From Deltaproteobacteria bacterium (lineage in GTDB: Bacteria > Desulfobacterota > Syntrophorhabdia > Syntrophorhabdales > Syntrophorhabdaceae): 51,297 nt of DNA. The notes beneath the pieces were generated by a model. The model was given only the letters and a program-made list of their open reading frames with translations. It made no database searches and was not told where the DNA came from. The stretch spans positions 1 through 51,297 of the forward strand of contig JAKORG010000074.1 of the NCBI GenBank assembly GCA_029777945.1, in the 5' to 3' direction. Numbering within the stretch: the stretch's first letter is position 1; each line of letters begins with the position of its first letter. A program made the translations under genes and the position numbers. Shown one piece after another: positions 46,156-51,297 of this stretch.

Positions 46156-49020
46156 TCAAAACAGGATCCTCAAGCCAGCGTTTATGCTGTGGGCAGTGTA
46201 TTTGTTGTCGCCGAATTGGGCATCATAGTTGATGGAGAAAGATATATCATCTCCAGTAACCATCGTGATGCCTGCGCCAAAGACTGCAAAACTCCTGTTA
46301 GGTGATGCAGTTTTGATGCTGAAAGGAGAACTCCCCTGGGCCAATCGGGAGGTAATGTTTCTGCTGTCCCTCAAGAACTCGTATCCGTATGATGCGCGGA
46401 TATTCGGTAAGAAAAGCCTTTTGTCTGCCTGCCATGTGTAAGATACCTTCCAGCCGATACTGGCCTGAAATGATTCCATATCCTGTCTGTCAACATCAAG
46501 GTTCAATGCGTCTGCCCCTGATTCGGTATAGCTATCAACATTTAGCTTTATATACTGTGCAGACACGGTTGGTGTGATTGTCCACCTTTTCACAGAGAAT
46601 TCGTATCCTGCGCCTCCATAGGCAGTGAATTGCCTGCCGTTTGGCGATGATGTGGCAGTGCGATCTACACCGGGGAATACGATGCGGCGGGTGTTATCAT
46701 AGCTTGCGTAGCCGTAGCTTAGCTGTCCATCCACAAAAAATCCCTTTTTAAAATAGGTCCCATAAGTCCCAAATGTATAGCCTTCCATCTTCACCTTGCT
46801 GCCCACATTGTCGGTATTGGCCCTGGAAGTATTGACCCCAACCATGAGACCTGCAATAAAATTACTGGTTAACCGGTAATCAGAGCCCATGGTGATACCC
46901 ATGTTGGTGTAGTCATAACCTGTCTGTCCCGAGGTGTCTCGCTGATCCCCAAAGACTGCATTTCCCTTTACAAAGAATCCGAAACGTTCATCTATAACTG
47001 AAGGTCTCATGCCGGTCAAGTAAGGGGATGAGCTGGCAAGAAGTATGGGTTTTTCCATCCAGTTGCCTGTGAAATCCCTGTTTATGATGTTGAGTCCGTT
47101 GACACTTATTCCCCGCGCACCTTGCCGGAGATCGCTTAAGCGTCCCGATATATTGCCGGCCTGGAATGATGCTGCGTTGATTCTCATGCTGGATCGGGCA
47201 TCGCTGCCTTTTGGCGCAAGCTGGTCTATGGCATTCGCTGCCTGTGTATATGTGGGGAGGGCATCGATAGCGGAAAGGATTGTATTTAGGTCGCCCGTAG
47301 CAGATTTGGCAGCACCATTGAGCATGGAGCTCACCGCCCTCTGATTGGGTGTTAGGTATGTAAGTAAGGTCTCGTTTGAGTAGTCACGCTCCACTACAAG
47401 ATACACCTGGTTGGGCACATCATATCTGGGCTTGAAGACCACTGTGGGCGTGATGTTGGTGCGAAGATTAGAGAACGTTCCAGTCACACCAGATGCAGCT
47501 GTAAGGATCGTCCCAAACGTTGTGCCTATTGCGGGTGTGGCACCGCCCGTCCACGATGTCTCGAGGGTTCCGTCCAGGGAGGCACATCCGGCGACAGCAA
47601 GGACATCGTTACTTGTGGGAGAGGCGACCTCTATGCTCAATTTTCCACCAGAACCCTGCGTATAGTTGCCGCTGACATTTAAGGTACCAATAGACCTACC
47701 TGGTTTTACTGTCCCGGCGTTTGCAAGACCACCGACAACACTGCCGGTGCCGCTTAAGATTCCCCCTGAATCCACATTCACCCCCGCTACCTTGCCAGTA
47801 TCACCCAGGATGGCAGTAGCACCTGACTGTATGGTTAGAGGTGCCTGGGAGTAATCACCCTGGACGTCGAGCGTGCCTTCAGAGACGGTAATTCGTTGAG
47901 CGTAAGAACTGGTGCCGGGATTGAGCGTTAGAGTGCCTTTACCGATCTTTTGAATGGCTATACCCCAGCCGTTTCCCTGATAATAATCGGTAAGGATATC
48001 AGAGTTGATTGATTGACTGACATTGTTGCCCCCGAATTTTCGTAAGGTCAGCGTGTATTCATACGTATCGAAAAGGTGCCATGTATCAGTCAAGGTATCA
48101 TAGGTATAATGCTCGATAGTGACTCTATTGCCGTTGACCGTCACCATGTTGTATCCATATTTACCCTCTTGATGACTTTCTCCTATAACGCGGGTGTCAG
48201 GATATGTCCCGTCCCAGGTGTCCAGCAATCCTCCTCCTGTGCCGACCACGATTTGTTGTATCTCAGGTCCCCCATCTATGGAGATCTTTGCCCTGTTATA
48301 GAGATGGATGTGTCCGGAAAAATAGACATTGACGCTGTAATCGCCTAAGCTTTTCCAGAAGACATCACGCTCAGCCGGATAGTTTGCCAGGGTATTGGCA
48401 GGGGCTACCTCAAAGGCTGGGTAATGACCGTATACAAAGGTAAAGGGGAGCGTATTTGTTGCTAATTGTTCGTTGAGCCAGGTCTGGTTTACCCTGTATT
48501 CATTGCCGGTATAGCCTTCTTCGAGCCCGATAATGAAGACATTGTTCTTGGAAAAGCTGTAGGTCATGCCCTTTTCATTGGGGGGACCGTTCATGGGGAT
48601 CTGCGGCATGTGATTGATCATATGGAGCTTCCATTCTTTGGCGTAATCGAGACCAGGGGTATTGACGTCTCCGTATGTTTCATGGTTTCCCCTGATGGGG
48701 TAGGTAATGTTAAGGAGGGACGCCATAGCAGCCCTATAGTGGGCATACTGATCGATAAGCGGGTTCTGTCCATGTCTGTCAACCCCGTGGACCTCATCGC
48801 CTCCGGCTAGAATGAAGCTCGGGTTCTTGCTTTGAATTTCCGCGGCCATTTTTTCTACGATCTCTTTATTGATGCCGTATGAACCATCCTTGTCCTGCTG
48901 ATCGCATACGACCACAAAAGACCAGGATGCCGCACGGGCTGTCCTGACAATTGCGCCTACAGCGAAAAAGGTCATAATAAGAATAACAATATATCTTCTG
49001 AGAAATTGCACTTCAGCCAC
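46156..49020 (-). CDS. autotransporter with metallophosphoesterase passenger
   Basis: A 954-residue type Va secreted protein. A signal peptide (about 1-31, ending ARA-ASW) is followed by a calcineurin-type phosphoesterase (about 35-320): VVVCDQQD, GGDEVHG, RGNHETYG, VYGHYPAF, FSGHIHLY. Then comes a short beta-helix with passenger-associated repeats (GKGTLTLNPG...GTLDVQGDYSQ...PGRSIGTLNVSGNYTQGSGGKLSIEV), an alpha-helical linker region and a C-terminal beta-barrel of about 280 residues ending in Phe (RILF). I start at GTG 49020 because AAAGGAG is eight bases upstream; the open frame runs 23 codons further. The DNA is visibly GC-richer than flanking genes, suggesting transfer. Phosphoesterase substrate is unknown. 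Confidence 0.92.
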   Translation of the reverse strand: MAEVQFLRRYIVILIMTFFAVGAIVRTARAASWSFVVVCDQQDKDGSYGINKEIVEKMAAEIQSKNPSFILAGGDEVHGVDRHGQNPLIDQYAHYRAAMASLLNITYPIRGNHETYGDVNTPGLDYAKEWKLHMINHMPQIPMNGPPNEKGMTYSFSKNNVFIIGLEEGYTGNEYRVNQTWLNEQLATNTLPFTFVYGHYPAFEVAPANTLANYPAERDVFWKSLGDYSVNVYFSGHIHLYNRAKISIDGGPEIQQIVVGTGGGLLDTWDGTYPDTRVIGESHQEGKYGYNMVTVNGNRVTIEHYTYDTLTDTWHLFDTYEYTLTLRKFGGNNVSQSINSDILTDYYQGNGWGIAIQKIGKGTLTLNPGTSSYAQRITVSEGTLDVQGDYSQAPLTIQSGATAILGDTGKVAGVNVDSGGILSGTGSVVGGLANAGTVKPGRSIGTLNVSGNYTQGSGGKLSIEVASPTSNDVLAVAGCASLDGTLETSWTGGATPAIGTTFGTILTAASGVTGTFSNLRTNITPTVVFKPRYDVPNQVYLVVERDYSNETLLTYLTPNQRAVSSMLNGAAKSATGDLNTILSAIDALPTYTQAANAIDQLAPKGSDARSSMRINAASFQAGNISGRLSDLRQGARGISVNGLNIINRDFTGNWMEKPILLASSSPYLTGMRPSVIDERFGFFVKGNAVFGDQRDTSGQTGYDYTNMGITMGSDYRLTSNFIAGLMVGVNTSRANTDNVGSKVKMEGYTFGTYGTYFKKGFFVDGQLSYGYASYDNTRRIVFPGVDRTATSSPNGRQFTAYGGAGYEFSVKRWTITPTVSAQYIKLNVDSYTESGADALNLDVDRQDMESFQASIGWKVSYTWQADKRLFLPNIRASYGYEFLRDSRNITSRLAQGSSPFSIKTASPNRSFAVFGAGITMVTGDDISFSINYDAQFGDNKYTAHSINAGLRILF

Positions 49021-49421
49021 GATCAGGGCTCCTTTGCTTGCACAAGGGAATCTCCTGGATCGGGGAATTATGGCATATACAAGCATCAACTGGAAACAAA
49101 TTACTGACCTTTTTACAGCCAGAATAACAAATTTTGTAGAGGAGGTATAGAAAAAACGTTGTGGGTAAAGTAAATCTTGTCCACAAAATATAGAATGCAG
49201 CGCCGATGATCGAGGAAAGGGATAATGAATTCAATTAGTTAGATGGAGCGGGCAACGGGGGTTCGAACCTGATTTATATAGTAGTGTATTACAGGAGATA
49301 AATCAAAACTAATTGTATTTTTCTATGAGGTATTAGGGTAGTGTAAATTCTCTTATGTAAATTCATTTAAGGGATGAAAAAAGGATGTACCTCCTCTTCT
49401 AATGAAGTTTGTCAAGCACAT
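49021..49421. other. gap between the autotransporter and the IS1111-type element
   Basis: About 400 bases with no convincing gene. It contains the tRNA-like 3' remnant at 49244-49270. The open frame at 49013-49234 on the minus strand overlaps the autotransporter start and has no supporting motif. Confidence 0.45.
49244..49270 (-). other. tRNA-Gly-like 3' end remnant, possible attachment site
   Basis: The minus strand reads GGTTCGAACCCCCG then TTGCCCGCTCCA. T-loop, acceptor 3' strand and CCA resemble tRNA-Gly (usual ending TTGCCCGCTCCA), with one extra C in the arm. No 5' half precedes it, so it is not a functional tRNA. Integrases commonly leave such 3' tRNA copies at one end of an island. 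Confidence 0.5.
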
Positions 49422-49437
49422 AATTACAATCTGTTAA

Positions 49438-49628
49438 AGTTCTTTTTGTTGTGATGGCCTCCAGCCTTTTTTATCCCCTTTATCTAACCTCTTTTGTTCT
49501 ACGAGCCTTATAGCCCAACTTACTTTATACAGATCAAAGGGGCGGTGGAAGTTGACCAAGCTAAATCATACGGGCCTTATTGCCCACGAGGTATCACGAT
49601 CCTTCTTCCACCACAACGCTATTCTCCT
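49438..49628 (-). ncRNA. candidate bridge/seek RNA of the IS1111-type element
   Basis: The stretch after the transposase stop folds on the minus strand. GGTGGAAG (49612-49605) pairs with CTTCCACC (49551-49544) and encloses the loop TGGGCAATAAGGCCCGTA (49586-49569). A second copy with 16 of 18 matches, TGGGCTATAAGGCTCGTA, is at 49517-49500 outside that stem. IS1111-group elements are known to code their guide RNA in the 3' non-coding end. Coordinates are those of the gap, not of mapped ends. Confidence 0.5.
49500..49586 (-). repeat. paired near-identical hairpin loops in the IS non-coding end
   Basis: The 18-base units at 49500-49517 and 49569-49586 differ at two positions. Each can form a short GGGC/GCCC (or GGGC/GCTC) stem around ATAAG. 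Duplicate loops are what a bispecific guide RNA, with donor and target loops, would show. Confidence 0.5.
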
Positions 49629-50891
49629 TTATGCCGCCAGTTTAAGGTGGCTTGTTTCTGTAAACATTCTTCTATCTCTTAAAAGTGCAAATATAACCTT
49701 AATAAGTTTTATAACCACTGCACAGAGAGCTTCCTTTTTCTTCATGGTTTTCTGCTTATTCTCATAATATTTTTTAAAGAAGGGGCTTCTATGAACTATC
49801 CCCATTACCATAAAGTAGAGGTATTTGCGAAGCAGCCACCTTCCTTTTTTTGAGATAATCTTTCTTCCTTTTTTCTGCCCCGAATCATGTTCCTGGGGAT
49901 CATATCCCGCATATTTTACAATCTGTTTGGGGCTTTGAAAGTTATAGGGGTTGCCTATTTCTCCGAGAAAAACTGCACAGGTCATTACACCGATACCCGG
50001 TATCGAAAGGATATGCCTGGCAAAGGGGATATTTTCCAAAATTGCTTTCATCTGTAATTCTATCTCTTTTAGCTGTGACTCTGAATGTTTTATGTCTGAA
50101 AGATAGGATGCTACCCGGTAACGGTCTGCTTCTCCTATGTTCTTAAGCCCTACGCTAGTTTGTGCGGCATGGTATATCTGGTGCGCCTTCTTTTTGGCCT
50201 TTGCCTTCCTCTTTGTGTTTTCTGCAATGAGTTTTGTTAATTTATCTATGCCCATTGAGAGCACATCTTCAGGAAAGGGGCATTGTTCAAGAATTGCCCA
50301 GAGACCTCTTGCCTTCATCGACCAGAATATGTTTTTTAGCTCAGGAAAATAATCTTCCAACGCACTCTTTAATGCGTACTTTGAACCTGTATTGGAACGG
50401 CAGATCCGCTCCCTTGTATGGGCTAATGTGCGTAGCTGACGAAAGACGCCGTCTTCTATTATGGTGTCAATATATTTTCCCTCTCTTACAATGTTTGCTA
50501 TTGTATAGGCATCTCTCATATCGTTTTTTGCAGAGGAGCTTTCATCCAGTTCCCTTTGATGCTTTAAAGCAGTAGTACGGATGAACCTTACTTCACAGCC
50601 TTTATCCATGGCGAAGAAGGCGATCTTTCTCCAATAATGTCCAGTGGGTTCCATACCGATTAAAACATCAGTGAATCCATATTTGTTCTTTGCTGTTTCG
50701 ATGATATCATGGAAATAGTCAAAACCCTTCCTGGAATTGTATATCTTAGGATATCTTCCAAGGACAGTCCCTTCTTTGTTCATTAAACACATAGCGTTAA
50801 ATTCGCATCCTATATCCATACCGACAATTAAAGTTTTATTCGTTATACGTTGACGCTTTTCTACCTGTTTGTTATTATTTCTTTTATGCAT
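49629..50891 (-). CDS. IS110/IS1111 family transposase
   Basis: A 420-residue recombinase. The N-terminal DEDD (RuvC-like) domain shows Asp26 (IVGMDIG), Glu81 (GMEPTGHYW), Asp124 and Asp127 (SAKNDMRDAY). The C-terminal Transposase_20 domain begins at LSIPGIGVMTCAVFLGEIG and contains IVKYAGYDPQEHDSG with the conserved Ser. I choose ATG 50891 (reads MHKRNNNK), preceded by GGAGGAGT; the longer frame from 50981 crosses the inverted repeat and is flanking DNA. Enzymes of this family are guided by an RNA from the element itself. The frame looks intact, so the element may be active. Confidence 0.92.
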   Translation of the reverse strand: MHKRNNNKQVEKRQRITNKTLIVGMDIGCEFNAMCLMNKEGTVLGRYPKIYNSRKGFDYFHDIIETAKNKYGFTDVLIGMEPTGHYWRKIAFFAMDKGCEVRFIRTTALKHQRELDESSSAKNDMRDAYTIANIVREGKYIDTIIEDGVFRQLRTLAHTRERICRSNTGSKYALKSALEDYFPELKNIFWSMKARGLWAILEQCPFPEDVLSMGIDKLTKLIAENTKRKAKAKKKAHQIYHAAQTSVGLKNIGEADRYRVASYLSDIKHSESQLKEIELQMKAILENIPFARHILSIPGIGVMTCAVFLGEIGNPYNFQSPKQIVKYAGYDPQEHDSGQKKGRKIISKKGRWLLRKYLYFMVMGIVHRSPFFKKYYENKQKTMKKKEALCAVVIKLIKVIFALLRDRRMFTETSHLKLAA

Positions 50892-50954
50892 GGCTTTTAC
50901 TCCTCCTGTTAAGAAATTTCTTTCAGCGGAAATTATCCTTAACAGATTGTAATT

Positions 50955-51297
50955 GCCATGCTCTTTTATTTCAATATTCATCTTTGGTTCTTTCTCTTTG
51001 GGCTTACTTCTTTATAGTAAGCTATAAAATAAAGTGATCAACCATAATCACAGATATTTTAAAAAGGAGGAACATCCATGGAACTAAGAGTGAGTGTATC
51101 AGAAGTATTAACCCAAGTTTGTCAATTTTTTGTGTAACATATTGATATTATTGGGTTTGCATTTTTAATTTCCCACTACAAATTTCTATTTTATGGTGAT
51201 AAGCCGCTTTAGTGGCTTGGGATGGATTTTTAGGGCATTGTAGATCTCTAAGTGAATGGGTTCTGGCTCTGAGGTGTGTCGAATATGTATGACTTGG
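50955..51297. other. right-hand flank with a possible decayed IS fragment
   Basis: About 340 bases with no full gene. A well-placed ribosome binding site (AAGGAGG) at 51064-51070 precedes a 19-codon frame, 51078-51137, which may be a gene remnant. AAGCCGC (51201-51207) and GTGGCTT (51212-51218) form a seven-pair hairpin (one wobble pair) with loop TTTA, of unknown role. Confidence 0.4.
51078..51137 (+). pseudogene. 19-codon remnant, perhaps the start of an IS256-like transposase
   Basis: ATG 51078 reads MELRVSVSEVLTQVCQFFV and stops at TAA. The opening recalls IS256-type transposases (M-x-x-R-V-S-x-x-E-V). The bases around 51116-51139, GTTTGTCAATTTTTTGTGTAAC, resemble IS256-type terminal repeats read from the other strand. 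If so, this is a deletion derivative in which the N-terminus is joined to the right end. The evidence is only pattern resemblance. Confidence 0.25.

Follow-up and report, generated by a model that had tools for sequence, protein, structure and literature searches.

A probable bridge RNA downstream of the recombinase gene of an IS110-superfamily element, with guides that resemble anti-Shine-Dalgarno sequences

Elements of the IS1111 group encode an RNA 3' of the transposase gene (tnp), in which a sequence complementary to the top strand precedes one that matches the bottom strand; their recombinases are 330–350 aa long and carry a GL-P----S(t)G motif, and their inverted repeats have terminal extensions of 7 and 3 bp (PMC11187229). 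The RNA of IS621 forms pseudo-symmetric target and donor loops (PMC11208158). A further element, IS900 of Mycobacterium avium subsp. paratuberculosis, is reported to target translation-initiation signals, according to the title of a paper (Doran, 1997) cited in PMC8141618.

Here we analyze an element near one end of a 51,297-nucleotide deltaproteobacterial contig (the window), where a first-pass annotation made from the sequence had proposed a candidate bridge or seek RNA in the 3' end of an IS1111-type element. The observation as a whole holds on the minus strand, the strand of all element features given below. From sequence comparison, we put the probability that positions 49438–49628 encode a bridge (seek) RNA belonging to an element of the IS110 superfamily at roughly 0.9.

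Recombinase and element boundaries

The DEDD recombinase gene (49629–50894; ATG at 50894, stop at 49629) is intact, as had been annotated, and encodes a protein of 421 aa with the active-site motifs MDIG, MEPTG, DMRDA, and DSGQ. Its Pfam matches, DEDD_Tnp_IS110 and Transposase_20 (7.5e-26 and 4e-22), are both IS110-superfamily domains, and it scores 201 bits against NCBIfam NF033542 (cut-off 140). The protein therefore has the DEDD RuvC-like domain and the Transposase_20 domain with its serine motif by which the superfamily is recognized. Its C-terminal half resembles the solved IS621 and ISCro4 proteins, with an E value of 3e-14 for IS621. Instead of the IS1111-group motif it contains GYDPQEHDSG, and the median length of its relatives is 428 codons.

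DNA and protein searches found no second copy of the element in its own genome, and related genomes were therefore used. Queried with the two flanks of the window joined as ATTTTAT-AG-GAGGTACATCC, three related genomes (G016, G005, and G006) gave six matches to the element-free site ATTTTAT|AG|GAGGTACATCC, with one mismatch in G006. These uninterrupted sites define an element of 1,630 bp at 49394–51023, counting both copies of a shared AG core, one at the left end (51022–51023) and one at the right end (49394–49395). The left target half is ATTTTAT (51024–51030), and the right target half, which the guide comparison described below also identifies, is GAGGTA (49388–49393). The stretch at 49438–49628 lies wholly within these limits; the first-pass annotation had named ends that exclude it as an outcome that would count against an RNA.

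The perfect 16-base inverted repeat of that annotation is present, with its left copy AATTACAATCTGTTAA at 50939–50954 and its right copy TTAACAGATTGTAATT at 49422–49437, but the copies are 67 and 26 bases inward of the left and right cores, far from the ends that an IS1111 label implies, and so the 7- and 3-bp layout of that group does not apply. Ends placed by the 7/3 rule were rejected, because conservation among copies passes the repeats on both sides, extending to AGCTTACTATAA (left) and TTAGAAGAG (right), and because the uninterrupted sites give other ends. A proposal that the target repeat is the conserved right-end sequence itself was weakened by the presence of the element's repeat upstream in 10 of 11 pattern matches, a count that includes matches in which a contig edge leaves only part of the repeat. 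Despite its distance from the true ends, this long inner repeat is conserved, with several copies carrying it as CTTTAACAG/CTGTTAAAG.

Joining the two ends would produce a predicted circle junction ..TTAGAAG-AG-CTTAC.., that is, ..TTAGAAGAGCTTACTAT.. When the predicted junction was scored, TTGACA (49410–49415) and TACTAT (51014–51019) fell 18 bases apart in the joined circle, as the −35 and −10 elements of a plausible promoter for both the recombinase and the RNA.

The sequence on either side of the element (49240–49393 and 51024–51297) contains direct repeats (TGTAAATTCTCTTA/TGTAAATTCATTTA) as well as a truncated plus-strand ORF (MELRVSVSEV), and is presumably the end of an IS21-like element. 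Judging from the short direct repeats and a repeated flank, the IS110-superfamily element appears to be nested within it. The 190 bases at the end of the contig (51108–51297) are found again in two further contigs of the same genome (L171 and L174). Farther away, positions 46156–49089 hold a 977-aa ORF that by eye resembles a fusion of a metallophosphoesterase with an autotransporter-type barrel.

Fold and guides of the downstream RNA

The body of the putative RNA, GUUGUGGUGG...CACAAC at 49448–49617, was delimited by an alignment of eight copies, covariation, and a covariance model. It follows the recombinase stop codon at 49629, within a long non-coding region downstream of tnp as in the IS1111 group, and about 130 nt precede tnp. 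The 191-nt stretch folds with a free energy of −54.3 kcal/mol (z −2.5), which 2 of 200 dinucleotide shuffles equaled. The structural alignment (the window copy, L003, L005, L007, L009, L030, L031, and L032; 176 columns) yields a consensus fold of 39 pairs in six helices, in which 96.8% of cells are paired. Changes on both sides occur at 8 pairs, as compared with 3.2 in shuffles, and none of 500 shuffles reached 8; when partners were slid by one to three columns as a control, the paired cells dropped to 30–55%. These compensatory changes answer a second reservation of the first-pass annotation, that structure might not be conserved in related copies. The covariance model (R1) gives 189 bits for the window copy, which is itself among the copies used to build it, and also matches just 3' of three distant recombinases (L034, L035, and L052) with an identity of about 35% or less. 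A scan of viral contigs for the non-coding-region and right-end patterns returned chance matches only. In L030, the RNA and the right end are several hundred bases apart, with other sequence (about 1640–1970) between them.

Two similar stem-loops, capped by the matching hairpins of helices 3 and 6, parallel the pseudo-symmetric arrangement of target and donor loops in the IS621 RNA (PMC11208158). Both apical stem-loops are structural: that of the target loop spans 49569–49587 (helix 3, with three pairs changed on both sides), and that of the donor loop spans 49500–49518 (helix 6). As annotated, the 18-mers TGGGCAATAAGGCCCGTA and TGGGCTATAAGGCTCGTA carry the same base at 16 positions, and the first is closed by a GGTGGAAG/CTTCCACC stem. 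The idea that these 18-mers are themselves guides was dropped because they pair as caps. What stands of the proposed two-loop pattern is a pair of stem-loops, one for the target and one for the donor, with the guides on the strands that flank the caps.

The target guides are the 5' and 3' strands beside the first cap. In the window copy, the right target guide AUACCUC (49588–49594) pairs with the right flank GAGGTA at six of six positions, and the left target guide GAUUUAG (49561–49567) resembles the left flank plus the core, weakly, with TTT vs. TAT. Across six positions in seven copies, the right guide matches each copy's own right flank 38 times out of 42 (28/28 at the first four positions), the highest count among 2,394 registers and a maximum over registers that 2 of 5,040 permutations reach, in copies that are related and hence non-independent. 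A copy outside the permutation test whose right end was recognized afterwards (L030) agrees at seven of seven positions (GAAGGCA). The left guide is weak in the close copies (13/18; 34 of 720 permutations, all registers considered), with a mismatch at position −2 in the window copy. Among distant relatives, the left guide matches at 221 of 306 positions in 51 elements (158 ± 6.6 expected) and the right guide at 95 of 132 in 22 elements (63 ± 4.5 expected), with none of 20,000 permutations as high in either case, in a register picked after examples had been read, the registers having initially been spotted by eye. The complement of the top strand lies 5' of the match to the bottom strand, which is the guide order of the IS1111 group, and the distant relatives support both orientations. 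Judged by its guides, the window copy is programmed for AG|GAGGTA, with TTTTATAGGAGGTA as its natural target, a site found empty in three relatives.

The strands beside the second cap relate in the same manner to the ends of the element. The 5' strand carries the complement of the bases with which the left end begins, and it differs between groups as the left ends differ: an exact complement is present in 7 of 7 copies with CATCC, 32 of 34 with CTTCC, and 3 of 3 with CTTAC, in only 10 of 21 with CATTCC, and in neither the single CTTGC copy nor the two TATTC copies. In the window, this right donor guide, UAUAAAGUAAGUU (49517–49529), is complementary to the left-end sequence CTTACT. The 3' strand is similar to the right end: the left donor guide GUAGAACA (49495–49502) matches TAGAA within the right-end sequence TTAGAAG|AG, and in L007 guide and end both have TAAAA (both comparisons read by eye). 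By these sequence comparisons the RNA is structured and its guides follow both target and element ends, as expected of a bridge or seek RNA, and the first-pass reading is right in kind.

The fold, guides, ends, core, and empty sites, as read from the sequence, suggest how such an element may move. In the first loop, the 5' strand complements the right target half and the 3' strand is similar to the left half and the core AG; in the second, the 5' strand complements the left end of the element and the 3' strand matches its right end. By analogy with IS621, ISEc11, and their relatives, the recombinase would bind the bridge RNA (PMC11208160, PMC11187229), the bound RNA would bridge the circular element and its target, and strand exchange would take place at the shared AG core.

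Shine-Dalgarno-like targets and alternative readings

In distant relatives, 56 of 60 targets specified by the guides contain a Shine-Dalgarno core, as compared with 17% by composition. Among the 22 distant insertions with a recognized right end and enough sequence, 15 are followed by an ORF of 50 codons or more that starts 4–17 nt past the core, vs. 12–29% at control positions. Because the guides of the wider clade mostly spell a Shine-Dalgarno sequence, insertion often places the right end directly before such a sequence and a start codon. In nine cases among the matches listed for close relatives, an AG|GAGG right end precedes the start codon of a long ORF, and by reading one such end (L014) precedes an ATG; most of these are element remnants. 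The site of the window copy is Shine-Dalgarno-like, but without a gene start 4–17 nt downstream. Right ends or short remnants lying directly before a Shine-Dalgarno sequence and a long-ORF start codon were seen in L008, L011, L012, L013, L015, L020, L025, and L028.

We lean, by a little better than even odds, toward a reading in which a broad clade of the IS110 superfamily, extending from deltaproteobacterial genomes to Firmicutes, carries 3' bridge RNAs whose target guides mimic the anti-Shine-Dalgarno sequence, such that translation-initiation sites are preferred, and in which guide order is set by the position of the RNA and not by the type of recombinase. The bias could also, with a good deal less probability, be one of survival, in which insertions at other sites disappeared and guides drifted toward those that survived, an explanation compatible with a guide role. 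Shine-Dalgarno sites in the near clade are often right-end remnants without a remaining element, which fits loss of this kind, but the distant elements in which 56 of 60 guides spell the sequence are apparently whole, though selection on the guides would fit survival as well.

It is very improbable that the stretch serves instead as a structured 3' untranslated region, or as a regulatory leader, with no guide role. A conserved, folded RNA immediately after a gene is what such a region would look like, and because Rfam has no match for the stretch at E values up to 1, assignment to a family cannot settle the matter; the variable positions, however, track the flanks copy by copy, which is not predicted for a regulatory RNA. 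Slimmer still is the chance that the protein alone picks Shine-Dalgarno-like sites and that the guides agree through shared ancestry or coincidence, since, although targets within the clade are often alike and the title cited in PMC8141618 places IS900 at translation-initiation signals, close copies with the divergent flanks GATGGG, GCGTAA, and GAAGGC carry matching guides and composition-keeping permutations fail.

If guides that mimic the anti-Shine-Dalgarno sequence do direct these elements, they would offer an RNA explanation for the old observation that IS900, an IS110-family element, inserts at translation-initiation signals, and would suggest a guide whose near-universal target lets it work in nearly all bacteria. 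A literature search of partial coverage found no report of an RNA basis for translation-initiation targeting, and the point appears unreported in the papers covered. The copies analyzed here also supply natural pairs of guide and target for testing programmable recombinases of another layout, and they show that long inverted repeats do not reveal the ends in this element group.

Relation to described elements

The element shares with the IS1111 seekRNA elements ISEc11, ISKpn4, and ISPa11 an RNA 3' of the recombinase gene, the order of the guides, and subterminal repeats. It differs from them in the length of its recombinase (421 aa vs. 330–350 aa) and in its repeats, which are set 67 and 26 bases inward from the cores and not 7 and 3 bp from the ends. 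The label "IS1111-type" given in the first-pass annotation therefore suits the position of the RNA and the guide order, but not the recombinase length or the distance from repeat to end. With IS621 (PMC11208160, PMC11208158; PDB 8wt6), the element has in common two loops that each place two guides around a stem-loop, a core dinucleotide, the DEDD and serine motifs, and the C-terminal similarity of the recombinase (E 3e-14). Unlike the present RNA, that of IS621 lies upstream in the left end, with the guide order reversed, and its core is CT as opposed to AG. The likeness to IS900 is the reported targeting of translation initiation, a comparison drawn from the title of that report. Judged from these sequence features, the element is best described as a member of the IS110 superfamily with a 3' bridge RNA.
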